DNA from: Paracoccus saliphilus
GTDB taxonomy: Bacteria > Pseudomonadota > Alphaproteobacteria > Rhodobacterales > Rhodobacteraceae
Length of the DNA: 64,000 bases
Assembly (NCBI GenBank): GCA_003255745.1
Contig: KZ836040.1
Coordinates: 67,748 to 131,747, forward strand
Direction of reading: 5' to 3'
Below the pieces are notes generated by a model. That model had not been told where the DNA came from and did not search any database. It saw nothing but the letters and a program-made list of their open reading frames with translations. A program made the translations under genes and the position numbers. How positions within the stretch are numbered: the stretch's first letter is position 1; every line of letters starts with the position of its first letter. Below, in pieces: positions 29,872 to 44,794 of the stretch.

Positions 29872-32800
29872 TGAATTCTCTCCTTGCAAACGGGCCACGC
29901 CCGAAGCTCTGGGACAACTGGGCGACTTGGACGGTCAGCGGTCCGGGGGAAATCTGCGACCAATCGGAATCTGTCAGGGAATAGGACGGTTGGCTGACTT
30001 CAGCTTCCAGAAACAGCCGCCCGTTGCTGCTCAGGCGCAGCAGGTAGCATTCGTGGGTCTCACCCAAGGGAATGTCGGGCCCGTCCCAGCCATCGCCATC
30101 AATCCTGCTGCGCCTGATCCAGGTGATCCTGCGCCCGTTCATCCGCAGATGGCAGGGGGCATAGGGGCGCAACCCGATCCCTGGTGCCTCGGTCGTGCGG
30201 CTGCGATAGCTTGCATCGTCAGGTGCGCGCAGTGCCGGACCGATCCGCCAGAACCGCTCCTGTCCCCGTGCCGACGGCGCCAGGTCCACCTGACGTGCGC
30301 CGCCGTCAAGAAATACGACCAGACTTCCGGCAGGCCAGCTGGGGGGCATCACGGCATCGCTGCCAGCCTGTCCTCGCAGGCGCTGGCTGATCTGCCACTC
30401 ATTGGGGGCGACCAGCTCTGCCCTTGCGAACTGCATGACCTCCCACCCGTCGATCAAGCCGTCACCGATCGCGACGGCATTCGCTCCGGAAAGCAATGCC
30501 CGCGTGGTGACCGAGCGAAGACTGTCGTTCAGCAGCCGCAGCCGCAGCGGCACGCCCCGGTCGATCAAACCCGGCTGCGCCCGTGGCAGTGGCGTCAGGG
30601 TTCGCCCGATCAGCGCGCGGCGATCGATCAGAAGGTTCAAGTCGAATCCGCCCTCGGCTTCGGCAGAATGATAAGCGGCCACCGTGCCTGGCCAAGGATG
30701 TGCCGCAACGGCCAGATAAGGGGCATGGGGTACCTCGTCGCCCCGCAGCAGAGGCAGGTCCAAAAAGACCGGCTGAACCGGCAGCGGCGGCGTGTACCGG
30801 CGGATGCTGTTCTGGTCATGGTGGCTCAGCCGGGCGGTATACAGGCCGGGATCCACCCGAATTGCCTCGACAGTGATTGCGCCGGCACGCTCCACGCGGT
30901 CGATGCGCCACCGGCGGGTCTCCTGTCCCGGCATCTGGGAAAGGATCACATCCCCGGGCCCTAGGCTGGCTTGCGATGGGGGCAGGACAAAGCGGGCCGT
31001 ATCCCGCGCCACCTCGGCCTCGGCGATCCAGCGATCGGCGATTGCGCGACCCTCGGCCCGTGTAAGCACCATCGCGAATTCGCTGTCCGATACGGCATGA
31101 CGGGTTTCGTCGGCCAGGCTCGACTCGGCGGTGGCCACGCCATAGTCGCCACCCGACTCGACATGGCTCAGGCGCAGCCGGCCCACATTCGCCGCCTCGA
31201 CCTGACGGGTCGTCTCGAATCCCATCAGCTCGCCAGCCACCGCCAGGTCATTGAACGTGATCTGGGCCTTGGCCAAACCGTCCCGGGCCACGAACGTCAG
31301 CACCCCGTCCCGTTCCACCGCGTCGAAACCATGCGCCAGCATCAAAGGCTGCAAAGCCGCCCGGCCGGATTCGGTGCCGCTCAGGGCGTAGCCCCGCACG
31401 ACCCCCGAAATGTTGGACACGTCCACCGCCGTCACCCCTGCTGCGCGACAGATGTCGCGCACGACTGCACGCAAGGATACGGCCCCTGCCCGGCCGTTCA
31501 GCCAGTGCCCGCGCTCCCACGCGGGGCCGTCCGACCACAGGTCGCTGCGACCGGGGAATGCTGGAAAGGGCCGCGCGTCCCAGCACCAGACATGTGCCCG
31601 GTCCGTATCCAACATTGCCAAGCCATCCGCATTCCGGGGATTGTTCTGAGGGTCGCGCCAGAAGTCCATTAACGCTTCGACATATGCCGCCTGGATCGCA
31701 TCGTTGCGGGTTCCGTTCGAGTAATGGGGCAGCGTACTTTCGGAACTCATGGCGTCCAGAAACTTGTTGGGCTGGTTTGTGGCCTTGTCCAAGGCGGCAC
31801 ATCCAATCTCGGTGAACCAGATGGGTTTGGAGCCAGGCACCCATGCCGTCGCCTCGCGCTGGCGCACCCCCGCCGGTCGGTCGAAATGCTGGTTTTGCCA
31901 CCAGCTTTTCAGGTCCTTGTAACGCCAGACCCAAGCCTCGTCATAAATGCCGTCCGTGATAGGCGTGCGCGCTTGGGCGTCCCGATCTGCATCGCTGGCA
32001 TAATACCAGTCAAAGCCTTCACCCCCGGCGATGTTGGACTTGAGGTACTCGATGTTGTCGATGCGCCCCCAGTGCGCGTCCAGGTGACTGTCCCCCTCGC
32101 GCCAGTCCGACAGCGGCATGTAGTTGTCGATGCCGACAAAATCGATGTTGGGATCGGCCCACAACGGATCCAGATGAAAGAACAGCGCCCCATTCCCAGG
32201 ATGATGGCCGAAGTATTCCGACCAGTCGGCCGCATAACCAATCTTTACACCCCGTCCCACGATGGAACGCACGTCCGCCGCCAACTGGCGCAACGCCGCG
32301 ACCGCCGGATAACTGTTCGACGGGCCACGGATCTGCGTCATCGCCACCATTTCGGACCCGATCAGGAAGGCATCGATCCCACCTGCGGCGGCACACAGAT
32401 GTGCGTAATGCAGGATAAAGCGGCGATAGGACCACTCCTCCGGCCCGTGATAGGAAACCTGATCCCCGTCGCGGCTGAAATGGAAGGGTTGCGCCGTCCC
32501 GAAAAAGGCAGCCACCTGATCGACCGCTGCCGTTGTGCCGTCGGTCGTCCCGGTTCGGCCCGGCGCAACGGAGGTGGTAATCCTCCCCCGCCACGGCATG
32601 ACGGGCTGCTCGGTCGCCCCATAGGGATCCGGCTGCCCGTTCCCGGGCAACTGCTCCATGAGGATGAACGGATAGAAGATTGCCTTCCGGCCCGAGGCTG
32701 ACAGCGCGCGCAGCCCCTCGATGACCGAACGGTCCGAAGGCGTGCCCCCATAGATAGGCCGACCGTTGACTTGTGCGACCTCATCGGCCTCGACACGGGC

Positions 32801-33742
32801 AATGCCGCCTGCATACCACGGCATTTCGTCGCCTTCCGAGGCCCTGAACTCCACCTTCGGCATGACCTGGCAGTTTCCAATCCGCAGATCGCTGCCAAAC
32901 CAGGAGACGACAAGCGAGACCGAGCCGACATTAGGTAGCTCACGTCCCAGCACATCAAGCGAGGCGCTGAAATCCGTGCCCCCCATGGGCGTGTTGACGT
33001 TGAAGCTGCGCACCCCGCCCAAATCGTCGGAATGGTGGACGCGTGTCGTTGCCAGAGAGTATTCGCCCGTCCCAGGTATCAGCGCCACGGCCCGCACATC
33101 GCGCGACAGGCCGGACCCGTCCCGAGCCGGGCTGGTCACCTCGAAACTCAGCTGGGGCATGCGATTGTTCCACCGCTCCAGGCTGAGATTTTCCAGCACG
33201 ACATAGGCGGTGCCGCGATAGGCGGGAGCTTCGTCGCCCTCGTGGGCCGCGATGATCGGATCCGGCATCTGCGTTTCGGCGCCACGATAAACGCGCATGT
33301 TCAGGTCGTCGGCGGCAATCTCTTCGCCATCCGCCCATACCCTGCCCACGCTTAGGATGCCACCCTCGCACAGCGCCAGCGCCACCGAGAGGCGGTAGCT
33401 GATCTGGGTCACGCGCGGCTGCGGCGCCCCCTTGCCGCTGCCCCCGCCTTCGGTGCGGGTAACCTCCTCCAGGGGCGAGGTCCAGATGACGTGGCCCGGC
33501 ATCCGCATCTGTCCCCAGACGCGGGGAATGGCGATGCCTTCGCCGGCGGTCTGGATGCGCAGGCGGTCGATGCGCCCTGTCTCGACCGCCTTTGCGCCGC
33601 CACCCAGCAGGCGCTGGTCGATCGCCCGGCCGATGACGGCCCCCGCCGCACGTCCCAGCACGGCGCCGGACAGGCCAAGTACCGCACCGCCAAACCCCGC
33701 ACCAAGCGATGCTCCGACCGCAGACAGGACTATCGTGGCCAT
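29861..33742 (-). CDS. GTA g15: hub/megatron (host-specificity) protein with TIM-barrel-like domain
   Basis: The largest GTA gene, 1293 residues, forming the baseplate hub at the tail tip. The N-terminus is Gly/Ala-rich and hydrophobic (LGAGFGGAVLGLSGAVLG). The middle (about 420-720) is the GTA TIM-barrel-like domain, with IDAFLIGSEM, KIGYAADWSEYFGHHPG and PIWFTEIGCAALDKATNQPNKF. After it come the phage-tail hub domain and a C-terminal beta-rich part. Length and order match g15 of R. capsulatus. Whether the TIM barrel is a working glycosidase is not known. Strong GGAGG before the ATG. Confidence 0.92.
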   Translation of the reverse strand: MATIVLSAVGASLGAGFGGAVLGLSGAVLGRAAGAVIGRAIDQRLLGGGAKAVETGRIDRLRIQTAGEGIAIPRVWGQMRMPGHVIWTSPLEEVTRTEGGGSGKGAPQPRVTQISYRLSVALALCEGGILSVGRVWADGEEIAADDLNMRVYRGAETQMPDPIIAAHEGDEAPAYRGTAYVVLENLSLERWNNRMPQLSFEVTSPARDGSGLSRDVRAVALIPGTGEYSLATTRVHHSDDLGGVRSFNVNTPMGGTDFSASLDVLGRELPNVGSVSLVVSWFGSDLRIGNCQVMPKVEFRASEGDEMPWYAGGIARVEADEVAQVNGRPIYGGTPSDRSVIEGLRALSASGRKAIFYPFILMEQLPGNGQPDPYGATEQPVMPWRGRITTSVAPGRTGTTDGTTAAVDQVAAFFGTAQPFHFSRDGDQVSYHGPEEWSYRRFILHYAHLCAAAGGIDAFLIGSEMVAMTQIRGPSNSYPAVAALRQLAADVRSIVGRGVKIGYAADWSEYFGHHPGNGALFFHLDPLWADPNIDFVGIDNYMPLSDWREGDSHLDAHWGRIDNIEYLKSNIAGGEGFDWYYASDADRDAQARTPITDGIYDEAWVWRYKDLKSWWQNQHFDRPAGVRQREATAWVPGSKPIWFTEIGCAALDKATNQPNKFLDAMSSESTLPHYSNGTRNDAIQAAYVEALMDFWRDPQNNPRNADGLAMLDTDRAHVWCWDARPFPAFPGRSDLWSDGPAWERGHWLNGRAGAVSLRAVVRDICRAAGVTAVDVSNISGVVRGYALSGTESGRAALQPLMLAHGFDAVERDGVLTFVARDGLAKAQITFNDLAVAGELMGFETTRQVEAANVGRLRLSHVESGGDYGVATAESSLADETRHAVSDSEFAMVLTRAEGRAIADRWIAEAEVARDTARFVLPPSQASLGPGDVILSQMPGQETRRWRIDRVERAGAITVEAIRVDPGLYTARLSHHDQNSIRRYTPPLPVQPVFLDLPLLRGDEVPHAPYLAVAAHPWPGTVAAYHSAEAEGGFDLNLLIDRRALIGRTLTPLPRAQPGLIDRGVPLRLRLLNDSLRSVTTRALLSGANAVAIGDGLIDGWEVMQFARAELVAPNEWQISQRLRGQAGSDAVMPPSWPAGSLVVFLDGGARQVDLAPSARGQERFWRIGPALRAPDDASYRSRTTEAPGIGLRPYAPCHLRMNGRRITWIRRSRIDGDGWDGPDIPLGETHECYLLRLSSNGRLFLEAEVSQPSYSLTDSDWSQISPGPLTVQVAQLSQSFGRGPFARREFNAE

Positions 33743-33766
33743 GCTGGCCTCCTTCGTTCAAGATGG

Positions 33767-34195
33767 TCAGGGAAATCGGAACCGCGCGACGATCCGGGAC
33801 CGCCAAGGCGGTGTCAGTGGGCTCTCGATCACGCCATGATAGGTATATGCGTGCAAAAATGTGACTTCAGCGCCAGTGACCGACAGAACACCCAGATGCT
33901 TGGCGATGGCCGCTTGGCGCATCCGGAACAACAGCACTTGTCCAGCCGCCCAAGGCTCATTGATCGCAATCGGCACCAGGTGCCGGGTCGCGGCGGCCAA
34001 CAGCAGTTCCCGGCTGCCGCACTCGGCCCAGTCTGCCGTATAGGCAGGCGGAGTTTCGGGTTCATTGCCATAAATCTCGCGCCAGATCCCGCGGATCAGG
34101 CCCAGACAGTCGGCCCCGCAACCCTTGCTGCTGGCCTGATGCACATACGGTGTTCCCAGCCATCCCCGGGCCGCCTCGACCACGCGATCATCCAT
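33767..34195 (-). CDS. GTA g14: NlpC/P60-type cell-wall peptidase
   Basis: Tail-tip peptidase of 142 residues, thought to open the recipient's peptidoglycan during DNA entry. The NlpC/P60 fold shows GWLGTPYVHQASSKGCGADCLGLIRG with the nucleophilic Cys in ADCLGL and the catalytic His in AKHLGVL. No signal peptide, as expected for a particle-borne enzyme. It overlaps g13 by 8 bp. Confidence 0.9.
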   Translation of the reverse strand: MDDRVVEAARGWLGTPYVHQASSKGCGADCLGLIRGIWREIYGNEPETPPAYTADWAECGSRELLLAAATRHLVPIAINEPWAAGQVLLFRMRQAAIAKHLGVLSVTGAEVTFLHAYTYHGVIESPLTPPWRSRIVARFRFP

Positions 34196-35021
34196 TGCGC
34201 AGCCCGACCTGCGGCGCCATCAGCCAGTCTTCCGAAGGCAGATGCGGAAAGCCCCGGAAATTCATAAAATTCGCGAACTTGAACCGGCAGGTCGCAGCCG
34301 CCTTGTCGCAACCCGCAGACAGCCGGACCTGATCGCCCGCCGCAGGAATGATACCCGGCGCCGACCAAAGTTCGATTACCCGACCGCCCCCAGGAAAGGC
34401 CGTGTCGTTCTTGATCATGCCGTGCAGTCCCTCTGCAGTGCCCGTCAGCACCTCGATGCGCCCCTGCTCGAACCAGTTCGAGGCGAAGGACGGGAAATCG
34501 GTGAAGGTGAAGATCCGGCCCTGCTCCAGGCCCTCGACCTGACGCAGGACTGACAGGGTCGGGGTGGTCAGATCCACCTTGCAGGTTGCGTCGCCCAATC
34601 GGGAACTGCATCTGCGATGATACACCCGACCTTGTGGCGCATTCAGCTGCTCGGACAGCCCGCGCAGCTCGGCACGAAAGGCGCCGTTGGCCCGTGCAAC
34701 CTCGCCCAACGTGCCGCGGAACACCAGCTTGCGGCGCGTCGTGTCTGTCCAGTCGACCTCCCACATGCGCAGCTGCGCATCGTCCCATCGGCCGGCCATC
34801 AGGTCGCGTTCGGTGATGGCATCATCGCTCAGCGCGCCCGTCGCTTCCGAGTTGTCTACGGACAGCCCCGTGGCCTGGACCAGGGCCTTCGCCGTCAGAC
34901 CCTGGTCTGGGCGAAAGGTCACCCCGCCAAAGTCCAGAACGCGGTCATGATCGGTGAACCCCAAGGTCAGGCCGTCAGCCCGGCGCACCGACCAGGCGCG
35001 CGCGATCGTTGTCGTTGTCAT
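34188..35021 (-). CDS. GTA g13: DUF2163 tail hub protein
   Basis: A 277-residue baseplate protein of the DUF2163/phage BR0599 family. It begins TTTIARAWSVRRADGLTLGFTDHD and has the conserved TGLSVDNSEATGAL segment. Four Cys in CSSRLGDATC and CDKAAATC suggest a metal or cluster site: in RcGTA the hub protein of this position carries an iron-sulfur cluster. 4-bp overlap with g12 and 8-bp overlap with g14. Confidence 0.9.
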   Translation of the reverse strand: MTTTTIARAWSVRRADGLTLGFTDHDRVLDFGGVTFRPDQGLTAKALVQATGLSVDNSEATGALSDDAITERDLMAGRWDDAQLRMWEVDWTDTTRRKLVFRGTLGEVARANGAFRAELRGLSEQLNAPQGRVYHRRCSSRLGDATCKVDLTTPTLSVLRQVEGLEQGRIFTFTDFPSFASNWFEQGRIEVLTGTAEGLHGMIKNDTAFPGGGRVIELWSAPGIIPAAGDQVRLSAGCDKAAATCRFKFANFMNFRGFPHLPSEDWLMAPQVGLRNG

Positions 35022-35650
35022 ACGCGCACCTCGATCACTGGGATATCGGGAACCTGCCCGGCCTGGAATGACGAAACCGAAACTGCAATCCTGTCCGTGT
35101 CAAAGCGCACCGGCAGGTCGAATTCATAGCCTACGGTGACCTCTGCCCCGACATCCGGCGCCTCGATAAAGGTGATCAGGCCTAGGGCGTGATCGACGCT
35201 GTAGTTGATGTCGTAAAATACCTCATTGCCTCCGATACCCGCACGCACGGAGCCGCGCACCGGCTTGCTGATGGGGCGCTGATAGACGCTAGCACCCGAT
35301 CGATAGGCTTTCGTCAGGGCATAGCTGCGCGTCTGGCCGTCGCCGATGGCGATGACCTGATCCCCGAACCGGGGCACTGCGGACGGAGAGCAGCTTTTGT
35401 AATCCGACCAGTCCTTCCAGCGAAAGCCGTGCAGCTGCCCCGACCGCGCCTCGAAAAAGGCGATCACAGCCGACAGGTCATCCAGCGAACGCAGCCCCAT
35501 CCCTGCATCAAAGCGACGGCGGGAATGAATCCAAGGGGTGTTACGTTCCTCAAAGCCGCTGGCCATCGTGACGATCTCGGTCCGGCGCTCCGGTCCGCCA
35601 ATCGCGCCAAAGGACAAGTTGGCGGGAAATCTCACTTCGTGAAAGGCCAT
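35018..35650 (-). CDS. GTA g12: distal tail protein (DUF2460)
   Basis: A 210-residue DUF2460 protein that joins tail tube and baseplate. Conserved segments are FHEVRFPANLSFGAIGGPERRTEIV, GFEERNTPW and FEARSGQLHGFRWKDWSDYKS. The ATG at 35650 has an ideal AAGGAGG upstream; the frame is open beyond it without family similarity. 4-bp overlap with g13. Confidence 0.92.
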   Translation of the reverse strand: MAFHEVRFPANLSFGAIGGPERRTEIVTMASGFEERNTPWIHSRRRFDAGMGLRSLDDLSAVIAFFEARSGQLHGFRWKDWSDYKSCSPSAVPRFGDQVIAIGDGQTRSYALTKAYRSGASVYQRPISKPVRGSVRAGIGGNEVFYDINYSVDHALGLITFIEAPDVGAEVTVGYEFDLPVRFDTDRIAVSVSSFQAGQVPDIPVIEVRV

Positions 35651-35663
35651 GAAGGTCCTCCTT

Positions 35664-36326
35664 TCAGGTGTTGCGGTCGCCGCGCGACAGGACCCGCGAC
35701 ATCTGCGCCGCGATTTGCGATTGGCTGCGCTGGAAACCGGCCACGTCCGGCGTCTGAATGTTGAACGTGACGTGCACGCGGCCCCCGCCACCCGCGGCGG
35801 CAACGCCCAGCTTGCCGTCCGCGCCTCGGCGCAAGGGCATGATGGCTTCGGGTCCGGCCTCGCCCATCAGGCCGGCGCCGCCCCGCATGGGAAAACTGGT
35901 AGGACCCGAAATCACGCCGCCAGAAGCTGCCCGACCCTGCGAAAAGACGCCGCCTTTCGCAAACGGGGTAAGACCCTGATCCAAGATCCCCCCGCCGAAA
36001 AGCCCCGCTATGCCACCCGCAAGAGTCCCGGCCAGCGCGTTCTCGACCGGTTTCATCGCCATGCCATAAACTGTGTCCGCCAGGGATCTGCCGATATCCT
36101 TCAGCGCGTCGGACAGCTTGCCCCCGTCCAGCACCAGTCCGTCGATTGCACGCCCCAAGCCACGCTCCAGCCCCGATGACAACGTGCCGACCTCGCGCGC
36201 TGTCAGCGCCATGGACTGCCGAAGGCGCCCCAACTCGGCTTGGAACTCGTTTGTCATACGGCCCGTTGGCTCGGGCTCGTCCTCCAGCAGGTCCAAGATT
36301 GGACCCGAACCGTCTTGGATTGCCAT
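35664..36326 (-). CDS. GTA g11: short tail tape-measure protein
   Basis: A 220-residue protein setting tail length. It has an N-terminal helical stretch (FQAELGRLRQSMALTAREVGTLSSGLERGL), a hydrophobic Gly/Ala segment (LAGTLAGGIAGLFGGGIL), and the C-terminal GPEAIMPLRRGADGKLGV shared by lambda-type tape measures. At 220 residues it predicts a short tail, close to the known RcGTA g11. A later in-frame ATG (residue 24) is possible. AAGGAGGGG lies upstream of the chosen start. Confidence 0.9.
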   Translation of the reverse strand: MAIQDGSGPILDLLEDEPEPTGRMTNEFQAELGRLRQSMALTAREVGTLSSGLERGLGRAIDGLVLDGGKLSDALKDIGRSLADTVYGMAMKPVENALAGTLAGGIAGLFGGGILDQGLTPFAKGGVFSQGRAASGGVISGPTSFPMRGGAGLMGEAGPEAIMPLRRGADGKLGVAAAGGGGRVHVTFNIQTPDVAGFQRSQSQIAAQMSRVLSRGDRNT

Positions 36327-36330
36327 CTGA

Positions 36331-36561
36331 TCATTCCCCTCCTTGTTCGCAGCCCAAGCCCGTCAGATCGGGCAAGTCGGCATATTCGGCGGCCAATTCC
36401 TCCAGGCGGGCTCGGGTCATTCCGGGCCGGGCATGGTTCAGGCCAAGCATCAGGGCCAGTTCTGCCGGTGTCAGCGCCCAAAACTGGTCGGGATGCAGCC
36501 GCAGGTCCCGCAGGCCCGCCCGCATCAGCCCTGGCCAGTCCAGCCCGGCGGGTCGGCTCAT
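36331..36561 (-). CDS. GTA g10.1: tail assembly chaperone
   Basis: A 76-residue protein of the phage tail assembly chaperone family (rcc01693-like), with LHPDQFWALTPAELALMLG and a Leu/Glu-rich helix after it. Its ATG overlaps the g10 stop by 4 bp. In tailed phages such chaperones keep the tape measure soluble before assembly. It ends 4 bp before g11. Confidence 0.88.
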   Translation of the reverse strand: MSRPAGLDWPGLMRAGLRDLRLHPDQFWALTPAELALMLGLNHARPGMTRARLEELAAEYADLPDLTGLGCEQGGE

Positions 36562-36875
36562 GCGGCGCCCCTGAACGCCAGGGTCAGCAGCCGGGCCGCG
36601 GCGCGCGCCGCCTCCACCGGGCCACCCTGGACCTGAACCGACATCAGGTCGCCCGCATTTCCGGACCAGCCGGCGCCATGCAAACCGGCCACCAGGACCG
36701 TCAGGATGTCCCTGCTGCTGAACCGACCCTCCTCCAGGCGCCTGGCCAAGCCAACCAGACCTTGCTCGTCCAGTTCGGCCTCCAGCTCTGCCAAGGCACC
36801 AAGCGTCAGGCGCGCCAAATGTGGCTGGCCATCCAGAACCAGCTCCACCTCGCCCCGCATCGGGTTCGCCATCAC
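36558..36875 (-). CDS. GTA g10: GTA-gp10 family tail chaperone-like protein
   Basis: A 105-residue protein of the gene-transfer-agent gp10 family. It has a beta strand pair (GEVELVLDGQPHLARLTLGAL) and then helices (ELEAELDEQGLVGLARRL). Located between major tail protein and chaperone g10.1, with 4-bp overlaps on both sides. The start could be either of two consecutive ATGs. Probably works with g10.1 in tape-measure handling. Confidence 0.88.
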   Translation of the reverse strand: MMANPMRGEVELVLDGQPHLARLTLGALAELEAELDEQGLVGLARRLEEGRFSSRDILTVLVAGLHGAGWSGNAGDLMSVQVQGGPVEAARAAARLLTLAFRGAA

Positions 36876-37285
36876 AGCGCCACGAATGCCAGCGCCCCGG
36901 CCGAGGCCAGCGCGATTTCATACGTGGCTTCACCGTCATGGGTGCCTGAATATTCCAGCGACGTGATCTGGAACGGCCCTTCGACGCGGCCAAAGGACGG
37001 GATGATGACCTGAAAGCGTGGCACCTCGCCGTCGAAAAAGACCTGGCGCGCGCGCCCGTCGCTGGCCGCGTCGCGAAACACACCCGAACCCGCGATCGAG
37101 GCGCTCCGCACCCCCGCCCCACCGAGAAGCTCGCGCCAGCCGCCCTCGCTCTCCAGGCTCGTTACGTCGACCGTGTCGGCGTTGAACGACAGGCGCGACG
37201 CCCGCAACCCCGCCACCGTTTCAAACGTGCCGTCACCGATCATGTCCATTCGGATCAAAAGATCGCGTCCGCTTTGCACTGCCAT
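36872..37285 (-). CDS. GTA g9: major tail tube protein
   Basis: A 137-residue TP901-1-like major tail protein that forms the tail tube. It begins VQSGRDLLIRMDMIGDGTFETVAGL and contains NADTVDVTSLESEGGWRELL, the typical tube-protein segment, and ends in the beta-rich EGPFQITSLEYSGTHDGEATYEIA. GAGGAG upstream. Overlaps g10 by 4 bp. Confidence 0.92.
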   Translation of the reverse strand: MAVQSGRDLLIRMDMIGDGTFETVAGLRASRLSFNADTVDVTSLESEGGWRELLGGAGVRSASIAGSGVFRDAASDGRARQVFFDGEVPRFQVIIPSFGRVEGPFQITSLEYSGTHDGEATYEIALASAGALAFVAL

Positions 37286-37297
37286 TTTCTATTCTCC

Positions 37298-37717
37298 TCA
37301 GTTCAGGTCGATACGGGCGCGGAAGGTCAGATCGACCTGACGCGCCGCACCATTCTGCATCCGGCGCGCCGACGCGCGCAGAAACCACAAGCCGGCAAGC
37401 CGGCCCCTTGCCAGCACCAGGCCCTCCCGCTCCAGCGCCTCGGCCACAGCCGCCGCGGCAGCCTTGACTGCGCCAAAGCCCGCGCCCTCGTCAGTTCCCG
37501 ACATCACCGAGACGACAAAATCGTGACGTGACCCCTGCCCTGTGCCATCGCTGGCATCCCGGACCTCCTCGGGACCCAAGGCCACGTGGATGCCGCTCGG
37601 CACATCAACAGGCATCGCGTCAAAGATCGCGTCGCCCACCAGATCGGCCAGAACGGCATCGGCACGCAGCTGTTGATAAACGGCAGCTTGCAATGCTGCC
37701 CCTGCCCGATAACTCAT
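37298..37717 (-). CDS. GTA g8: DUF3168 tail terminator/completion protein
   Basis: A 139-residue DUF3168 protein. Conserved features are AALQAAVYQQLRADAVLADLVG, IFDAMP and the central HDFVVSVMS, with a C-terminal VDLTFRARI strand. Members cap the tail tube at the head-tail junction. Its ATG overlaps the g7 stop by 4 bp. Confidence 0.9.
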   Translation of the reverse strand: MSYRAGAALQAAVYQQLRADAVLADLVGDAIFDAMPVDVPSGIHVALGPEEVRDASDGTGQGSRHDFVVSVMSGTDEGAGFGAVKAAAAAVAEALEREGLVLARGRLAGLWFLRASARRMQNGAARQVDLTFRARIDLN

Positions 37718-38052
37718 GCCCCCAGCTCCTCGCGTGCAAAACAAAACAGGAAGCGGCCGCGGGGATCGGCCTCGGCAACCGCCTCGATCAGGAAAAGCCG
37801 CTGGCCCAGACGCAGACGCTGACCAGGCCGCGGGCGGCGCGGATCGCCGGATGCAGCCGCGCGCACCGCAATTCGCCACTGCGCCACGCTGATCATGCCC
37901 GGCCCGCTGCCTTTTTCTCGGGCCGACCGTGCCTCCAGGCCTGCCCACAGCCAGCCAAGCTGTCGCCATTCCTGGCGGTGACCGCCCATGCCGTCACCGG
38001 TCCGATCGGGCGTTTCCAAGGCCAAACGGACATTCAGTTCGGGAACCGGCAT
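37714..38052 (-). CDS. GTA g7: head-tail adaptor (head closure) protein
   Basis: A 112-residue head-closure protein of the SPP1 gp16-like family, seen as LNVRLALETPDRTGDGMGGHRQEW and the C-terminal GQRLRLGQRLFLIEAVAEADPRGRFL. The ATG at 38052 overlaps the g6 stop by 1 nt (TGATG); the frame runs further upstream but only through g6. Confidence 0.9.
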   Translation of the reverse strand: MPVPELNVRLALETPDRTGDGMGGHRQEWRQLGWLWAGLEARSAREKGSGPGMISVAQWRIAVRAAASGDPRRPRPGQRLRLGQRLFLIEAVAEADPRGRFLFCFAREELGA

Positions 38053-38666
38053 CAGCGAACCTCCCGGCTGCCGCGCCCGGCCAAGGTACGCACGGCCCGC
38101 CACCTTTCGATCAGCGCACTGACCCCAAAGGGCAGCGCGTGTTGCGCGCCGTCATGGCTGCGGTCATCGTAATACCGCGCCGCCAGCAGGATCACCGCCT
38201 GCGCAAGATCCGCCGGCACCCCCTCCCAGACATCGGCGAAGCCCGCGACGAAGGTGACCGTCACGCTGCCCAGGCGCGGCACATGGGGCAGCACCACCCC
38301 CGTCGGCAAAATCACTGGCCGCTGCCCGTCGGGAACAAGCCGCCATGTTTCCGGTGGAAGCGTCGTGACCGTGCCGGAACCGTCGTCGATCCGGATCGTC
38401 TCTACCGCATGGACCGGCGCCAGCGGCAGCGACTGACCCAGCCTGTCGCGCCAGTCGTCAAGCTGCATCTGAAACCGCCGCTTCAGCAGGACCTTGCCAG
38501 TCCGGCCCTCGATGGTCGCGATCGCGGCCCGAAGAAAGCCCGCCAGCGCCGCAGTTTCGGCGGCATCTTCCGGCCCGTCAAAGCCCTGGGCCAGACGCAA
38601 GTGCCCGCGCAGGGCGGCCACCGGCAGCGCCTCCGCCGCAGGCGCCGTCTCCTCTATCAGCATCAT
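38052..38666 (-). CDS. GTA g6: head-tail connector protein
   Basis: A 204-residue protein of the phage gp6-like/phiE125 gp8 head-tail connector family. Its N-terminal helices include AETAALAGFLRAAIATIEGRTGKVL, and the C-terminus has DLAQAVILLAARYYDDR. The ATG at 38666 has GGAGG 8 nt upstream and is preferred to an in-frame ATG at 38702 with no ribosome-binding site. It is separated from the capsid gene by 190 bp containing a strong stem-loop. Confidence 0.9.
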   Translation of the reverse strand: MMLIEETAPAAEALPVAALRGHLRLAQGFDGPEDAAETAALAGFLRAAIATIEGRTGKVLLKRRFQMQLDDWRDRLGQSLPLAPVHAVETIRIDDGSGTVTTLPPETWRLVPDGQRPVILPTGVVLPHVPRLGSVTVTFVAGFADVWEGVPADLAQAVILLAARYYDDRSHDGAQHALPFGVSALIERWRAVRTLAGRGSREVR

Positions 38667-38706
38667 CTCGCGAACCTCCCGTCCTGCCGTCCGCATGTCC
38701 ATCAGG

Positions 38707-38733
38707 GGCAGGGCCCCCTCATGGGGCCCTGCC
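38707..38733 (-). promoter_or_regulatory. Stem-loop between GTA capsid gene g5 and connector gene g6
   Basis: Perfect 11-bp stem GGCAGGGCCCC / GGGGCCCTGCC with a 5-nt loop. There is no U-run after it on the coding strand, so it is more likely an mRNA 3'-end stabiliser or partial terminator for the highly needed capsid message than a full stop. The 190-bp gap around it is the longest between GTA structural genes. Confidence 0.55.
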
Positions 38734-38856
38734 TGCCGTGCCAGGTCAGGGAAAAGGGCGCGCCCCCGCGCCAGCCATCAGCGCGCGCGGACAGTTGCTA
38801 AGCCGGCATGACCGACACCAAAGCGCGCCCTTCCCTTCACCTCATCCCAGGCGGGA

Positions 38857-40020
38857 TCAGGCGAAGCGCAGCAGCTTGACGGCGCGGAAGTCGGTGACGC
38901 CGCCGCCAACCCGCTTGGTCGCATAGAAAAGCACATGCGGCTTGGCGCTGAAGGGATCTCGCAGCACCCGCAGATCGGGACGCTCAACGATAGTATAGGC
39001 CGAGCGGAAATCCCCGAAGGCGACCGCAAAGGCGCTGGCCGCCACGTCCGGCATGTCCTCGCTGATGACGACCGGATAACCCAGCAGCTGCGGCACCTGG
39101 CCCACGGTCAGCGGATCGCTCCACAGGAAGCGGCCATCGGCATCCTTCATCTTGCGAACCCGCGCGGCGGTCTTGGAATTCATCAGGAAGGCCGCGTTGG
39201 CACGATATTCCGCACCCAGCGCATAGATCAGGTCGATCAGGCAATCCATCGGCGCGGTGGCCGGGAAGTTGCCCGACACGCCGGTGCCGACAAAGCCCAC
39301 CTGGCCCGCCGTCGCGGTCCCATCCGTGGCGGTGGGATAAGACAGGATGCCCCGCGGCTTGTCCACGCCATCGCCGCGGATAAAGGCGAATGCCTCGGCG
39401 CGGGCGAAACGGTCCGCAATCCGCTCGGCCAGCCAGCCTTCGACGTCAAAGGCCGCGTCGTCCAGCAGGCGCTGGCTGGCCTTAGGCATCGCTGACAATT
39501 CGTGGACCGGGATCGCGATGCGGTCCAGCTGCGAATTGGCCGTTTCCACCGTGGCCGCTTCGGTGGCCCAGCCGGCACCTGTCTCGCCCCGTTCGACCAG
39601 CACCTCATAGACGCTGCCCTCAATGGTGACCACATTCGCCATCCGGCGCAGCGAAGTGGTCGAGAACAGCGTGTTCTGCACCGTCTCCGCTACCTTGGGC
39701 GCGGCAAGGAAGCCGCCGTCGCTGACGACCGACAGTGCCTTTTCCTCGATCACCAGGCCGCGCAGCGCGTCATCGTCGCCGCTGCGCAGGTAGGCGTCAA
39801 AGGCTTTCTGATGCGGCGCTCCGGTCTCGGCGGCGGCGGACAAAGGGGCGCGGCCACGCAGGGCGGTCTTGCGGTCGATCATGGTCATACGCTCTTCCTG
39901 TGCATTGAGCTTGGATTGAATATCTTCACGGAAACCCCGAAGTTCGCTGACGAACCCCATCATGGCCCCTTTCAGATCGGCGGACATGTCCCCGCCGCCC
40001 GCGGCTTTCACCTCGGTCAT
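38857..40020 (-). CDS. GTA g5: major capsid protein (HK97 fold)
   Basis: A 387-residue HK97-type capsid protein. The first ~100 residues form the helical delta domain (DLKGAMMGFVSELRGFREDI, then a coiled coil), expected to be removed by the g4 protease. The mature shell protein has GFLAAPKVAETVQNTLFSTTSLRRMANVV, MPKASQRLLDDAAFDVEGWLAERIADRFARAE with the E-loop region around it, and the C-terminal FGDFRSAYTIVERPDLRVLRDPF. GAGGAGAAG lies upstream of the ATG at 40020; upstream open frame is not protein-like. Flanked by stem-loops on both sides. Confidence 0.95.
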   Translation of the reverse strand: MTEVKAAGGGDMSADLKGAMMGFVSELRGFREDIQSKLNAQEERMTMIDRKTALRGRAPLSAAAETGAPHQKAFDAYLRSGDDDALRGLVIEEKALSVVSDGGFLAAPKVAETVQNTLFSTTSLRRMANVVTIEGSVYEVLVERGETGAGWATEAATVETANSQLDRIAIPVHELSAMPKASQRLLDDAAFDVEGWLAERIADRFARAEAFAFIRGDGVDKPRGILSYPTATDGTATAGQVGFVGTGVSGNFPATAPMDCLIDLIYALGAEYRANAAFLMNSKTAARVRKMKDADGRFLWSDPLTVGQVPQLLGYPVVISEDMPDVAASAFAVAFGDFRSAYTIVERPDLRVLRDPFSAKPHVLFYATKRVGGGVTDFRAVKLLRFA

Positions 40021-40096
40021 GGTCTTCTCCTCGTCGGGATGAACGGGGCCGCGCCCCAGTTGCCGGATCGCCCTTGGGCCGGTCCGAACGCCTTGA

Positions 40097-40118
40097 CGGA
40101 CCGGGCGCACCCGGTCCG
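40097..40118 (-). promoter_or_regulatory. Stem-loop between GTA protease gene g4 and capsid gene g5
   Basis: Perfect 9-bp stem CGGACCGGG / CCCGGTCCG with a 4-nt loop, 5 nt after the g4 stop. The 40097-40104 arm can instead pair with CCGGTCCG at 40079-40086, giving two mutually exclusive hairpins. Suggests processing or differential stability of the capsid mRNA. Confidence 0.5.
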
Positions 40119-40123
40119 GAAAC

Positions 40124-40654
40124 TCATGCGCCCCGCAGGGCCTGCGTCGCCTGCGCGAACAGTGCTGCCATCTCGCGCAGATCGTCCGTCTCCTTGCGAT
40201 CAACCTTGGCCTGGGGCAGCATCGGGAATGTCACCAGCGACACCTCCCACAGCTCGACCTCGGCCAGGGCACGGCGGCCCTTCTGGTCGCGCTCGGCGCG
40301 GATGGTGCGGTAACCGATCGACAGCCCGTCGATGGCGCCGGCCTGGATCAGCGCGGCCGCCTCGCGCGCCTGCGCCACCTCGGGCAGCAGGCGGCCCTTG
40401 ACCCACAATCCCGTCCGGTCCTCGCGGATCTCGTCCCAGACGCCGATGGGCCGGGTCGGGTCGTGCTGCCACAGCATCCGCACCTTGTCGCCCTTGGCCG
40501 CCAGCCGCTCCAGCGACGCGGCGAAGGCCCCCGGCAGCACCGCGTCTCCGCCCTGGTCGGTCAGCCCGAACAGGCTGGCATAGCCCTCGATCACCTGGCC
40601 GTCAGACAGGGCCGGCGCCCCGCCCGCGAATTTCACCTCTAGCCCCGGAACCAT
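40124..40654 (-). CDS. GTA g4: HK97-family prohead protease
   Basis: A 176-residue S78 capsid maturation protease. It opens with the typical EGYASLFGLTDQGGDAVLPGAF, carries the catalytic His in MLWQHDPTRPIG and Ser in DGLSIGYR, and has the ELWEVSLVTFPM segment after it. It cuts the delta domain from the capsid precursor encoded next. The 103-bp gap to g5 holds a stem-loop. Confidence 0.93.
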   Translation of the reverse strand: MVPGLEVKFAGGAPALSDGQVIEGYASLFGLTDQGGDAVLPGAFAASLERLAAKGDKVRMLWQHDPTRPIGVWDEIREDRTGLWVKGRLLPEVAQAREAAALIQAGAIDGLSIGYRTIRAERDQKGRRALAEVELWEVSLVTFPMLPQAKVDRKETDDLREMAALFAQATQALRGA

Positions 40655-40657
40655 CCT

Positions 40658-40888
40658 TCAGCCTCCTTTTGGCGCATATTCCAGTATCCCCTGCACGGCC
40701 TGGGTCAGGATCACCGCGACGACGCCATAGACCGTCATCCACAGCCGCCGCTCCAGCCCCTCGATCATGGCCTCGATCCGCTCAAGCCGCTTCTCGACCT
40801 GGCCGAATTGCAGCGCCATGATCCGCTCCTGCGCCTCAAGGCGCTGGTCGTGCCACAGCCCGTCCTTGACGAAACGCGACCCCTCCAC
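40658..40888 (-). CDS. GTA g3.5: small protein with C-terminal membrane helix
   Basis: A 76-residue protein at the position of RcGTA g3.5. A charged, coiled-coil-like N-terminal half (RLEAQERIMALQFGQVEKRLERIEAMIEGLERRL) is followed by one hydrophobic helix (MTVYGVVAVILTQAVQGIL). Starts at GTG, 3 nt after the g3 stop. Function unknown; the shape is like a holin or scaffold-like helper, but nothing here proves either. Confidence 0.8.
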   Translation of the reverse strand: MEGSRFVKDGLWHDQRLEAQERIMALQFGQVEKRLERIEAMIEGLERRLWMTVYGVVAVILTQAVQGILEYAPKGG

Positions 40889-40891
40889 GGC

Positions 40892-42076
40892 TCATGCCCC
40901 GTCCAGCGGCGGCAGCCCCAGCAGGCTGCGCTTCTCGGCGTCCGTCAGGAAACCCGCCGCCGCAATCCGCGCCCATTGCTGGTTGCGCTCCTCGGCAAGC
41001 GCGGGCACCTGGTCGGGGTCGGGCCTCAGCTCGACCTCGGCCCCCAGATGCTCGGACAGCCACCACGCGACCGAGGCCGCCACCCGCGTCACCAGCGGCA
41101 GCACCGTCAGCCGGTAAAAGGCCCGGTGGGCTTCGGCGTAATTGGCATAGGTCGCATCCCCCGGGATCCCCATCAGCATGGGCGGCACGCCAAAGGCCAG
41201 CGCGATCTCGCGCGCCGCAGACAGCTTGGTCTCGTGGAACTCCATGTCCGACGGGCTGAAGCCCATCGGACGCCAGTCCAACCCGCCTTCCAGCAGCATG
41301 GGCCGCCCGGCGTTCCGCGCGCCCTGGTGGTTCATCTCGATCTCGCCCACCAGCCGGTCATACTGCTCGGCGCTCAACGTGCCCTGCCCGTCCAGCCCCT
41401 TGTAGACGATCGCCCCGCTGGGCCGCGCTGCATTGTCCAGCAGCGCCTTGGACCAGGCCGAGGCGCTGTTGTGAACATCCAGTGCCACCGCCGCCGCCTG
41501 CATCGGCGACAGACCATAGTGGTCATCCTGCGGGTGAAAGCTCTTGATGTGGCAGATCGGGTCCGGGCTGCCGGTCATGTCAAAGCGGTGCTTGCGCCCC
41601 CCCACCGCGTATTCATAGGCGACGGGCCAGCCATCCGCACCCGGCACCACGCTCATGCGGTCCGACCGCAGCACATGCAGTTCCTCCGGCAGGCCCGCCG
41701 GGTCCAGGCCCACCGCCTCCAGATAGCCGTTGCCCGACAGCATTATCTGCCCGAACAGCGCCTCGAACAATTCGGCGCGGCCCTGCCCCGGATTGGGCCG
41801 CCGCAGCAGGTCCAGCAGCGGGTGCATCTCATAGCGTCGCTCACGGTCGGCGCAGATCAGCGGCACGGCTGCGGCCGCCTCGGCGATCAGCTTGACCGAA
41901 CGAAAACCGATCGGATTGCCCACAAAGCCGCCGCGTGTCAGGCTGCCGGTGTCCCGCGCCGTCCAGACTGGCCGCCCAGACCCGCTGGCAAAGGCCACCA
42001 CACGGCCCGTCGCGCTGGCCTTCCTCTCAGGCGCGGGGGCGGATTTCTCCTCCCGCGAAAACAATCGAAACGCCAT
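40892..42076 (-). CDS. GTA g3: portal protein
   Basis: A 394-residue HK97-type portal that forms the ring for DNA entry and exit at one capsid vertex. Typical segments are NPIGFRSVKLIAEAAAAVPL, HPLLDLLRRPNPGQGRAELFEAL, MLSGNGYLEAVG and the C-terminal GDATYANYAEAHRAFYRLTVLPLV. The ATG at 42076 has GGAGG 5 nt upstream; a start at 42088 is less likely. The 113-bp gap to the terminase gene contains a terminator-like hairpin. Confidence 0.94.
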   Translation of the reverse strand: MAFRLFSREEKSAPAPERKASATGRVVAFASGSGRPVWTARDTGSLTRGGFVGNPIGFRSVKLIAEAAAAVPLICADRERRYEMHPLLDLLRRPNPGQGRAELFEALFGQIMLSGNGYLEAVGLDPAGLPEELHVLRSDRMSVVPGADGWPVAYEYAVGGRKHRFDMTGSPDPICHIKSFHPQDDHYGLSPMQAAAVALDVHNSASAWSKALLDNAARPSGAIVYKGLDGQGTLSAEQYDRLVGEIEMNHQGARNAGRPMLLEGGLDWRPMGFSPSDMEFHETKLSAAREIALAFGVPPMLMGIPGDATYANYAEAHRAFYRLTVLPLVTRVAASVAWWLSEHLGAEVELRPDPDQVPALAEERNQQWARIAAAGFLTDAEKRSLLGLPPLDGA

Positions 42077-42102
42077 GCTCGCCTCCATGCCTCATCCATG
42101 CG

Positions 42103-42131
42103 AAAGGGCCGCCCCGACAGGGCGGCCCTTT
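42103..42131 (-). terminator. Terminator-like hairpin between GTA g2 and g3
   Basis: Perfect 12-bp stem AAAGGGCCGCCC / GGGCGGCCCTTT with a 5-nt loop, in the gap between terminase and portal genes. On the minus strand TTT then CGC follows, so it is strong in structure and weak in U-tract. It could reduce transcription into the structural genes or mark an RNA-processing point. Confidence 0.55.
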
Positions 42132-42189: not shown

Positions 42190-43605
42190 TCAAAGCCGCC
42201 GCATCTGCGGCCGCCGCCAGCCACTGGCCGGCTCGATCATCAGTTCGTGGATCGCCCAGACCATCGCATCCAGCCTGTCTGGGCTGCCCCGACCCTCAAA
42301 GCCGCGCACAGTCATCTGGCACATCTGGTCCTCAAGCGGCCCCAGTGACCCGCCGCGCAGGTGCTTGATCCGCCCCTGCTCATAAAGCGCCGCCACCGGT
42401 TCCGCCCGCAACCCCTTGCCCCGCGACGCCCTCAGCGCCCGGAACGGCACCAGGGGATCAATCTGCCGGATCACGCTTTCGACCAGATCACCGCCCTGGT
42501 TCACTTCGGCCACCAGTTTCTCGGCACCATGTCGATCCATCGCCGCGATCGCCGCCCGCGCCCAGTCCGACGGGCTGCCCCGCATGCTGGCATCCTCCAG
42601 CACATAGGCGCGCCAGTCCTTCGGCTCGCCTTGAGTGACGACACCTGCCACGATGATCCCGCATTCGTCGCTGGCGCGCCCCCCCGTCACGGCCGGATCG
42701 ACCGAAACAACGATCCGGTCCAGCTTTGGCGGCGTGTCGATCCGCGCCTCCTCCAGCATGGCCGTCGTCCACAACGCACCCTCGACATCGTCCAGCAGCA
42801 CGCCGTCCAGTTCCTGCCGCCCCAACCGCGTTCCGCCATAGCGGCTCTCGACCTCGGCCAGAAAGCTCTCGGCCAGATAGGCGCGGTTTGCATCCGTCGG
42901 CGCATGGGTCACCACCGTGCTGGCATTGCCCAGGATGCGCTTCAGCACGCCGACATTGCGCGGCGTCGTGGTGACAACCTGTTGGGGATGCTCCCCCAGG
43001 CGCAGCGCGAATTGCAGCATGTCCCAGACATCCTCGGCCTTCTTCCACTTGGCCAGTTCATCCACCCAGGCCGCATCGAACTGCGGCCCGCGCAGCGCCT
43101 CGGGCTCATGCGCGGAATAAACCGTGGCCGTCGCGCCATTGGCCCAGACCAGACGCCGCCGCCCCGCCTCCCAGACCGGTCGCCGGTCGGGCGGCGAACA
43201 GGCCAGGATGCCGCTTTCGCCGAACACCATCACCTCGCGCACCTGGTCGAAGGTCTCTCCGACCAAGGCCACGCGATGGCATTTGCCGGGCGCGGCGGCG
43301 GTCGGCCCCTCGACCATCCGCCGCACCCATTCCGACCCGGCGCGGGTCTTGCCCGCGCCGCGCCCCCCCATGATCACCCAGGACTTCCAGTCGCCCTCGG
43401 GGGGCAACTGGTGCGGCAGCGCCCAGAACTCGAACAACCAGGGCAGGCTCATCAGCGCGTTTTCCGACAGCCCGCCCAGGAATGCCTCAACCTCCTGCGG
43501 CGCGGCGGAGGCAAGCCAGGCGGCGCCCGATCTCGTCTCGTGCGGCGTCAAGGTCGAGGCTGCCTCCTCCGACCCCGCCCGCGATATCCTTGCGAAGTTT
43601 GTCAA
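42190..43605 (-). CDS. GTA g2: terminase large subunit
   Basis: DNA-packaging motor ATPase and nuclease, about 450-470 residues. Walker A is GGRGAGKTRAGSEW and Walker B is FDAAWVDEL; the C-terminal nuclease domain shows VVSVDPAVTGG and LVAEVNQGGDLVESVI. The frame begins at TTG 43605, which would overlap g1 by 119 bp. A second TTG at 43551 follows a strong GGAGGAGG and is a good alternative; homologue-like similarity begins near AAWLASAAPQEVEAFL, before the first ATG, so one of these TTGs is needed. In GTAs this enzyme packages random host DNA by headful filling. Confidence 0.92.
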   Translation of the reverse strand: MTNFARISRAGSEEAASTLTPHETRSGAAWLASAAPQEVEAFLGGLSENALMSLPWLFEFWALPHQLPPEGDWKSWVIMGGRGAGKTRAGSEWVRRMVEGPTAAAPGKCHRVALVGETFDQVREVMVFGESGILACSPPDRRPVWEAGRRRLVWANGATATVYSAHEPEALRGPQFDAAWVDELAKWKKAEDVWDMLQFALRLGEHPQQVVTTTPRNVGVLKRILGNASTVVTHAPTDANRAYLAESFLAEVESRYGGTRLGRQELDGVLLDDVEGALWTTAMLEEARIDTPPKLDRIVVSVDPAVTGGRASDECGIIVAGVVTQGEPKDWRAYVLEDASMRGSPSDWARAAIAAMDRHGAEKLVAEVNQGGDLVESVIRQIDPLVPFRALRASRGKGLRAEPVAALYEQGRIKHLRGGSLGPLEDQMCQMTVRGFEGRGSPDRLDAMVWAIHELMIEPASGWRRPQMRRL

Positions 43606-43894: not shown

Positions 43895-43989
43895 GCAATC
43901 TGCCCCGCCTCGTGTCCTGTCCGCACGAGCCAAGAAACGAAAAAGCGGCCCAAGGTTTCCCCCGGCCGCTTGCCCATTTCTCCCAGCAT
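43891..43989 (-). CDS. Possible 32-codon leader peptide upstream of GTA g1
   Basis: An open frame of 32 codons starting at ATG 43989 and ending in a TGA that overlaps the g1 ATG (ATGA). The peptide is basic and amphipathic, beginning MLGEMGKRPGETLGRFFVSW and ending HEAGQIA. The ATG sits at the transcription start predicted from the -10 at 43996-44001, so the mRNA could be leaderless. An intrinsic terminator lies inside the frame. Translation of the peptide could therefore influence read-through and couple ribosomes to g1. No similarity is known to me and expression is unproven. Confidence 0.35.
   Translation of the reverse strand: MLGEMGKRPGETLGRFFVSWLVRTGHEAGQIA
43939..43971 (-). terminator. 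Intrinsic terminator in the GTA leader (possible attenuator)
   Basis: On the minus strand: 8-bp stem AAGCGGCC / GGCCGCTT with a 13-nt loop, followed directly by TTT (TTTTT in all) and CGTTTCTTG, a classic rho-independent terminator. It lies 45 nt before the g1 ATG and 18-50 nt after the predicted transcription start. It could end trpF read-through, but the promoter at 43996-44024 lies upstream of it too, so transcripts from that promoter must pass it to reach g1. Confidence 0.7.
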
Positions 43990-44024
43990 GTCCAAGTTCT
44001 ACCTTGGACCGTTCCGCAAGTCAA
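43990..44024 (-). promoter_or_regulatory. Predicted GTA promoter with a palindrome over its -10
   Basis: On the minus strand TTGACT (44019-44024) and TAGAAC (43996-44001) are spaced by exactly 17 bp, a good sigma70-like promoter reading toward g1. The -10 lies inside the inverted repeat GTCCAAG-N6-CTTGGAC (43990-44009), so a DNA-binding protein at the palindrome would compete with RNA polymerase. GTA promoters in Rhodobacterales are controlled by GafA and the CtrA pathway; whether this palindrome is a site for any of them is unknown. Confidence 0.6.
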
Positions 44025-44161
44025 CAACTAAACCAAAGGTTGCGCCGTCTGTCGCTGAATACAATCAAAATCAGCAGGTTATATGTGCAACACCCTCTGC
44101 GCACGCCAAGCAACACTTGCTGCAACACGGGCGAATCCAGCTGCCTGGGCCGTGCAGCGAC

Positions 44162-44794
44162 TCAACGCGCGGCCGCAACAAAAGCCCTGATCAGGCCCGC
44201 CTCCTTGCACCCTGGCGTCGATTCCACCCCTGAACTGACATCCACCATCGGCGCGCCGGTCAGCCGCACAGCATCGGCGACATTGTCTGGCGTCAGCCCG
44301 CCGGCCAGCATCCAGGGACGCAGCCACCGACGCCCGACAAGCAAGCGCCAGTCAAACGCCAACCCATTTCCGCCTGGAAGATCCGCCCCCTTTGGCGGCT
44401 TGGCATCGACCAGCAGCATGTCGGCCACCAATCCATGTTCGGTCAGCAGCGGCAGATCCTCGGCTCCGGAGATCCCCACCGCCTTCATGACCGGCAACCC
44501 TGTCAGCGCCTTGACTTCGGCCACCCGATCCGGCGTCTCGTGCCCGTGCAGCTGGATCACGTCCAACGGCACCTCCCCCAACACTTCATCCAGCAGCGCG
44601 TCATCGGGATCGACAAACAGCCCAACCCGCGCCACCCCTACCGCAACTGCTTGCGCCAAAGCTGCGGCTTCCGACACCGTCACCGCACGGGGAGACTTCG
44701 GAAAGAACACAAACCCCACAAAGCGCGCGCCCGCCTCGCAGGCAGCGACAACGTGGGCCGGCTCGCGCAGCCCACAGATCTTGACGTCCGCCAC
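44162..44794 (-). CDS. trpF: Phosphoribosylanthranilate isomerase
   Basis: Catalyses the Amadori rearrangement of phosphoribosylanthranilate in tryptophan synthesis. 210-residue TIM barrel. The catalytic Cys lies in VKICGLREP, and the catalytic Asp and the phosphate-binding [10 protein letters not shown] and VDVSSGVES follow. Starts with GTG 3 nt after lapA. Instead of the usual trpB, the GTA cluster follows. No terminator lies directly at its end; the next hairpin is 190 nt on. Confidence 0.94.

Follow-up and report, generated by a model that had tools for sequence, protein, structure and literature searches.

How a lethal domesticated-phage operon is silenced in nearly all cells is a central question for GTAs, and in the GTA locus of Paracoccus saliphilus a predicted terminator hairpin lies between the predicted promoter and the first gene, g1, of the structural cluster carried by the window (the whole stretch of 64,000 nucleotides that was analysed). 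According to the original prediction, every GTA transcript would have to pass this hairpin if the predicted promoter is the real one, so that expression would be governed by attenuation or antitermination in addition to activators such as GafA; termination of read-through from the upstream gene trpF was given as the alternative. The cluster is of the RcGTA type, with terL, portal, protease, capsid and tail genes in order together with a GTA_TIM protein (Pfam), whilst g1 has no Pfam match and is named by its place ahead of terL.

Architecture of the GTA leader

44162–44794, minus strand: trpF, the upstream gene, outside the module (PRAI, NF002295)
44019–44024, minus strand: −35 element TTGACT, with TTGAC invariant in 65/65 aligned leaders
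44006–44016, minus strand: spacer motif CGGAACGGTCC (consensus GCGAACGgTCC), conserved; candidate site for the GafA C-terminal domain (by analogy with PMC11150451, PMC9638019)
43996–44001, minus strand: −10 element TAGAAC, with TA at 44001–44000 reaching 1.89–2.0 bits
43971–43990, minus strand: initially transcribed segment CATGCTGGGAGAAATGGGCA, conserved at 1.46 bits per column on average over 65 leaders
43943–43971, minus strand: T1, the leader intrinsic terminator hairpin (fold energy; covariation in 9/10 pairs)
43940–43944, minus strand: U-tract of T1, 1.65 bits per column
43909–43929, minus strand: H2, a second conserved hairpin between T1 and g1, CTCGTG/CACGAG (3′ arm also as CATGAG) with a GCGGA loop
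43487–43894, minus strand: g1, small terminase-like first gene (open reading frame, position before terL)
42190–43605, minus strand: g2, terL (Terminase_6N and 6C; bounds of the open reading frame, the true start not being settled)
42103–42131, minus strand: T2, a hairpin separating g2 from g3; its U-tract is short in the window but complete in most Paracoccus/Thioclava-group relatives
29861–42088, minus strand: rest of the GTA structural cluster, comprising portal, protease, capsid, tail and GTA_TIM protein genes (Pfam)

T1 is composed of a 5′ arm AAGCGGCC (43971–43964, minus strand), a 13-nt interior GGGGGAAACCTTG with an extra 4-bp helix inside it, and a 3′ arm GGCCGCTT (43950–43943, minus strand) that runs into a T-run at 43944–43940; its minimum free energy of −20.8 kcal/mol (z = −4.56) was equalled by 0 of 200 dinucleotide shuffles. 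The stem starts ∼18 nt after the predicted GTA start and ends ∼46 nt before the ATG of g1, in agreement with the coordinates and distances first proposed for it. A stable GC-rich stem with a U-tract directly after it is the sequence criterion for an intrinsic terminator, and this is the structure found, confirming T1 as a real intrinsic-terminator sequence; on the plus strand no T-run follows the stem, leaving the GTA direction as the only terminator orientation. Under a strict rule (≤ −12 kcal/mol and 5/6 T), T1 is one of five such sites on both strands of the 64-kb window. A simple scan tool alone returned an unimpressive two terminator-like sites against a chance expectation of 1.7 in 2 kb, and the weight of the case therefore rests on comparison across genomes.

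The promoter upstream of T1 has TTGACT (44024–44019) and TAGAAC (44001–43996) separated by a 17-nt spacer on the minus strand. A conserved spacer is not a general feature of sigma-70 promoters; here the spacer motif averages 1.12 bits per column, compared with 0.33 for the flank ahead of the promoter, with columns of up to 2.0 bits and with G44014 and C44011 invariant across 65 aligned leaders, and the 20-nt initially transcribed segment (1.46 bits mean) is better conserved than the −10 element. The conserved spacer position matches both the place where Caulobacter GafZ needs its element (PMC11150451) and that bound by the C-terminal domain of Rhodobacter capsulatus GafA (PMC9638019); no Caulobacter-like palindrome is conserved across the aligned leaders, although GAACG in the spacer is. 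The GTA transcription start is predicted, from the −10 element, to lie near 43989, 95 nt upstream of g1. In R. capsulatus RcGTA, which belongs to the same GTA family and has a homologous GafA, the −10/−35 elements, the GafA binding and a start confirmed by RNA-seq coverage lie ∼76–125 nt upstream of g1 (PMC6363796, PMC9638019), arguing for a start ahead of the hairpin rather than downstream of 43939.

Two further elements near the promoter were considered. A palindrome over the −10 element (GTCCAAG-N6-CTTGGAC, 44011–43992; −11.5 kcal/mol) was dropped as an operator because it is absent in other Paracoccus. Several Paracoccus leaders (the window and L002–L007) share the sequence GGGTGTTGC (∼44085–44093 in the window), which lies ∼95–105 nt ahead of the predicted start and is a candidate site for the GafA N-terminal domain.

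Conservation of the promoter and terminator module

Of 25 genomes of the genus that were searched (that of the window included), 24 have the leader, with the stem, U-tract, promoter and initially transcribed segment preserved and the loop variable. A terminator occupies the T1 place in 76 of 78 named loci with enough flank, drawn mostly from Paracoccus but also from Thioclava, Rhodobacter, Actibacterium and others; the hairpin is therefore present in close and distant relatives, the opposite of the outcome that the original prediction had named as adverse to it.

In a family alignment of 71 diverse leaders (per-column bits being taken from 65 leaders), 87.8% of cells in the 10-pair T1 stem pair, compared with 75.4% in shuffled and ≤56.5% in slid alignments, and covariation scores 0.338, shuffled alignments giving 0.140 (0/500 as high) and slid ones ≤0.104, although relatedness and the reading of structure off the same sequences inflate these comparisons. 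Both sides have changed in 9/10 pairs, and rewritten stems include GCGGCC/GGCCGC, GCCGCC/GGCGGC, GCGCCG/CGGCGC, ACGGCC/GGCCGT and GGCACC/GGTGCC, a pattern in which the T1 stem is replaced by compensatory changes while stem and U-tract persist.

The order of the module, namely TTGAC, a 17-nt spacer with conserved GAACG, the −10 element, the 20-nt initially transcribed segment, the intrinsic terminator and then g1, is kept across the family, and the supposition that this promoter belongs with this terminator is upheld by their conservation together. Strict terminators in 160 terL-upstream regions fall at the target position in 120, in the upstream-gene window in 3, in the g1 coding region in 0 and on the antisense strand in 5; some loci that fail the anchor search (L149, L152, L154 and L169) have unrelated strong terminators.

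The variety of upstream genes bears on a reading of T1 as mainly an insulator against upstream read-through, its place downstream of the promoter being secondary. Upstream genes such as trpF and mltG do lie on the same strand, and between trpF and g1 the window has no other strong terminator; an insulator would, however, be expected upstream of the promoter, where Thioclava has one and yet keeps T1, and the spacing between the −10 element and the beginning of the T1 stem hardly varies across leaders, irrespective of the upstream gene, making an insulator distinctly improbable as the main explanation. The gene preceding the leader is mltG in 80 of 161 loci and trpF in 13, with much of the rest phasin-like, hydrolase-like or other, and because these genes differ, T1 is not a trpF terminator in its main role.

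A covariance model built from promoter, segment and terminator yields one strong match in the window's genome, at the GTA locus (96.6 bits), with the next at 15.7 bits; the other matches are at chance level, and in L196, which was inspected, no GTA context was seen. The module is thus specific to the GTA locus of its own genome. Among 159 family genomes, nearly all of different genera, 141 have a terL match, and in 106 of these 141 Rhodobacteraceae genomes the module lies on the terL strand, within 1 kb ahead of that gene (median 359 nt); since the model was partly built from these genomes, this prevalence is not an independent test, whereas placement and genome-wide uniqueness are. Rfam 15 gave no match to the T1 leader above the gathering score (best 15.8 bits, cut-off 50), and phage RDJL Phi 1, which encodes the GafA-like gp38, has no module in its first 50 kb (10.5 bits).

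The module is missing beside terL in 35 of the 141 genomes. One of these, G101, carries it on a different contig from terL; the remaining 34 have no module near terL on the same contig, though most carry GafA. Absence is associated with damage to terL (5/7 damaged-terL genomes versus 30/134 others; Fisher p = 0.01, from small numbers).

Readings in which the RNA itself acts

The high conservation of the initially transcribed segment would suit a cis-acting RNA attenuator, in which a leader peptide, ligand or RNA-binding protein switches terminator and antiterminator folds, as would an ATG at the predicted start (43989), from which a frame of 33 codons runs to the g1 ATGA and terminates there. 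That ATG is missing in 29/71 leaders and the frame stops within the loop in several, so that the 33-codon frame was rejected as a leader peptide; the Rfam search likewise found no known element, and with T1 arms rewritten while the segment stays fixed, the two share no conserved competing helix. Pairing of GGTCCAAGG (44010–44002) with CCTTGGGCC of the hairpin was also rejected as an antiterminator, GGTCCAAGG being upstream of the start and the loop being variable. An attenuator of this kind is accordingly very unlikely, and of the two forms of control originally offered, the promoter–terminator pair on which both depend stands, whereas the evidence speaks against attenuation of the classical kind, through a leader peptide or a competing RNA helix.

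The segment can also pair with the region after the U-tract, lengthening the stem (86% of cells paired, with weak covariation), which may be just the usual A-tract/U-tract extension, and H2 follows with its GCGGA loop kept across the family and its 3′ arm overlapping a possible ribosome-binding GAG(A)GG; H2 might govern translation of g1 or serve an antitermination complex as its RNA site. Both features would be compatible with a hairpin that acts at the RNA level, either in a regulatory RNA only ∼50 nt long or by stabilising the 5′ end of the operon mRNA. Stabilisation would not require a U-tract, yet the U-tract is among the most conserved parts, and the lack of conservation in the stem sequence argues against base-pairing targets, leaving only a slender chance for such a role.

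A second terminator in one group

In one group of relatives a terminator follows g2 as well, so that most of the operon lies behind two of them, T1 ahead of g1 being the first. In the window this hairpin, T2, has arms AAAGGGCCGCC...GGCGGCCCTTT (42131–42103) between g2 (terL) and g3 (portal); 61 of the 78 named loci have a terminator within 200 nt after terL, compared with 17/78 on the antisense strand, and there are few further downstream. T2 with its U-tract is conserved in Paracoccus, Thioclava and Rhodobacter relatives (L029–L108) and absent in 19/20 distant genera, so that the family-wide feature which had been expected is ruled out and T2 is a feature of the clade. Where it is present, transcripts must cross two terminators, as processive antitermination would expect.

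GafA and its proposed role in passage through T1

An intact GafA homologue of 379 aa is encoded in the window's genome (G000:C125:22929–24065, minus strand), combining a helix-turn-helix at its N terminus with a DUF6456 domain at its C terminus (PF20057, 190 bits); its gene is not adjacent to lipA, lying ∼17 kb from it on the same contig. Among 14 control genomes DUF6456 was found in Caulobacter only. GafA is near universal in the family (146/159 genomes), and for that reason its presence fails to separate module-bearing from module-less genomes.

Caulobacter GafZ, homologous to the GafA C-terminus, associates with elongating RNA polymerase and Nus factors, needs an element between −35 and −10, and has been demonstrated experimentally to allow read-through of terGTA and rrnB T1, leading Tran and Le to suggest that GafA might have previously unrecognised antitermination activity (PMC11150451); a conserved terminator 18 nt after the start would be an exact substrate for the suggested activity. 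R. capsulatus GafA, by comparison, binds with its C-terminal domain in the promoter spacer region and acts via the omega subunit (PMC9638019). Recruitment of RNA polymerase through omega, together with the restriction of direct antitermination evidence to Caulobacter, would favour a leaky T1 that only lowers basal expression, GafA raising initiation while a constant fraction reads through and no antitermination takes place. T1 is nevertheless strong by its predicted fold (−20.8 kcal/mol), and is kept strong with its U-tract across the family, and losing most transcripts would be an odd design where a weaker promoter would do; this explanation is considered unlikely.

The T1 module is instead probably a promoter-proximal termination gate, passed only by GafA-modified RNA polymerase. 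RNA polymerase would start near 43989 at the sigma-70-like promoter and normally stop at T1 after ∼50 nt. By analogy with the binding of Caulobacter GafZ and R. capsulatus GafA, the C-terminal domain of GafA, once the protein is made, would bind the promoter between −35 and −10, and GafA would join the polymerase in the region of the conserved initially transcribed segment; polymerase so loaded would continue past T1 into the structural genes, and in the Paracoccus/Thioclava group past T2 as well. As T1 lies downstream of the promoter, it would also halt polymerases arriving from trpF or other upstream genes, reserving entry for polymerase equipped at the GTA promoter. What is observed is the module with its order, conservation, compensatory evolution and GTA specificity, together with an intact GafA gene; antitermination by GafA at T1, and any part in bistable expression or in confining GTA expression to a few cells, are inferred.

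A gate is favoured by the module upstream of terL, found blind in whole genomes and unique in its own; by stem covariation alongside a conserved U-tract, the unrelated upstream genes and the Thioclava terminator upstream of the promoter; and by the conserved spacer where GafZ and the GafA C-terminal domain act, the intact DUF6456 protein, GafZ antitermination and T2 in one group. Counted against it are the 34 module-less terL genomes, the lack of a conserved Caulobacter-like spacer palindrome, and the demonstration of R. capsulatus GafA action only via the omega subunit and promoter binding.

Relation to known systems

The closest parallels differ from this leader in instructive ways. Caulobacter crescentus GafYZ similarly combines a GTA promoter under a DUF6456/GafA-family regulator, an early operon terminator and an element between −35 and −10, but there terGTA follows the first gene and consists of three repeats of 150 bp, the leader measures ∼250 nt, the element is palindromic and GafY and GafZ are separate (PMC11150451). 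The present leader has one hairpin, 18 nt past the start, and its GafA unites both parts in a single fused protein. R. capsulatus RcGTA has been described as being under initiation control only, a terminator being unmentioned in the main texts (PMC6363796, PMC9638019). Lambdoid late promoters (lambda Q, Q21) share the succession of promoter, spacer element and terminator soon after the start, and their operons are opened by a promoter-loaded antiterminator, which for GafA is here proposed only; GafZ is unlike Q in sequence and predicted structure (PMC11150451). Q-type antiterminators are loaded at a promoter-proximal pause, and the feature of the present leader that might correspond to it is the conserved initially transcribed segment. 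Bartonella BaGTA, a separate chimeric GTA, is expressed through antitermination according to the title of Korotaev et al. (eLife 2025, cited in PMC13236601), and its likeness to the RcGTA-type leader is taken from that title. GTA antitermination is thus already known in Caulobacter and, by title, in Bartonella; for RcGTA-type clusters, searches of open-access papers (subscription papers being outside the scope) found no report of a leader terminator close behind the promoter. The module also provides a sequence signature marking GTA promoters in whole genomes.

Leaders beyond the module and other observations

Outside the family, G235, from another family of the same class, is matched at 35.8 bits upstream of its terL. 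In 20 terL-upstream regions from other families inspected by eye, promoter-like sequence runs directly into an intrinsic terminator in L222, L227, L232 and L236, the stems being unrelated, and L220 and L230 resemble the module in their initially transcribed segment but show no clear terminator. A broader proposal, held tentatively and at slightly less than even chances, is that promoter-proximal antitermination is the ancestral switch of alphaproteobacterial RcGTA-type clusters, with GafA working as a processive antiterminator that is Q-like though structurally unrelated to Q and is loaded at an element made up of conserved promoter and initially transcribed segment, and with T1 a near-universal lock in the Rhodobacteraceae.

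Several loci depart from the common plan. L155, L157, L160, L161, L163 and L174, with intact terL and GafA and no module, have in common the pre-g1 sequence ACAGGCAAnAAAGGTrTCGAGCATG, a putative alternative GTA leader in at least six module-less genera. Conversely, G135, G148, G151 and G181 have the module at 42–97 bits and no terL match at E 1e-60, and may represent GTA remnants, contig breaks or divergent terminases. In the terL of G110, G119, G180, G083, G144, G184, G177 and G132, only residues 1–150 match, within open frames of ∼830–880 aa, as if the GTA large terminase of these genera carried an intein-like insertion.
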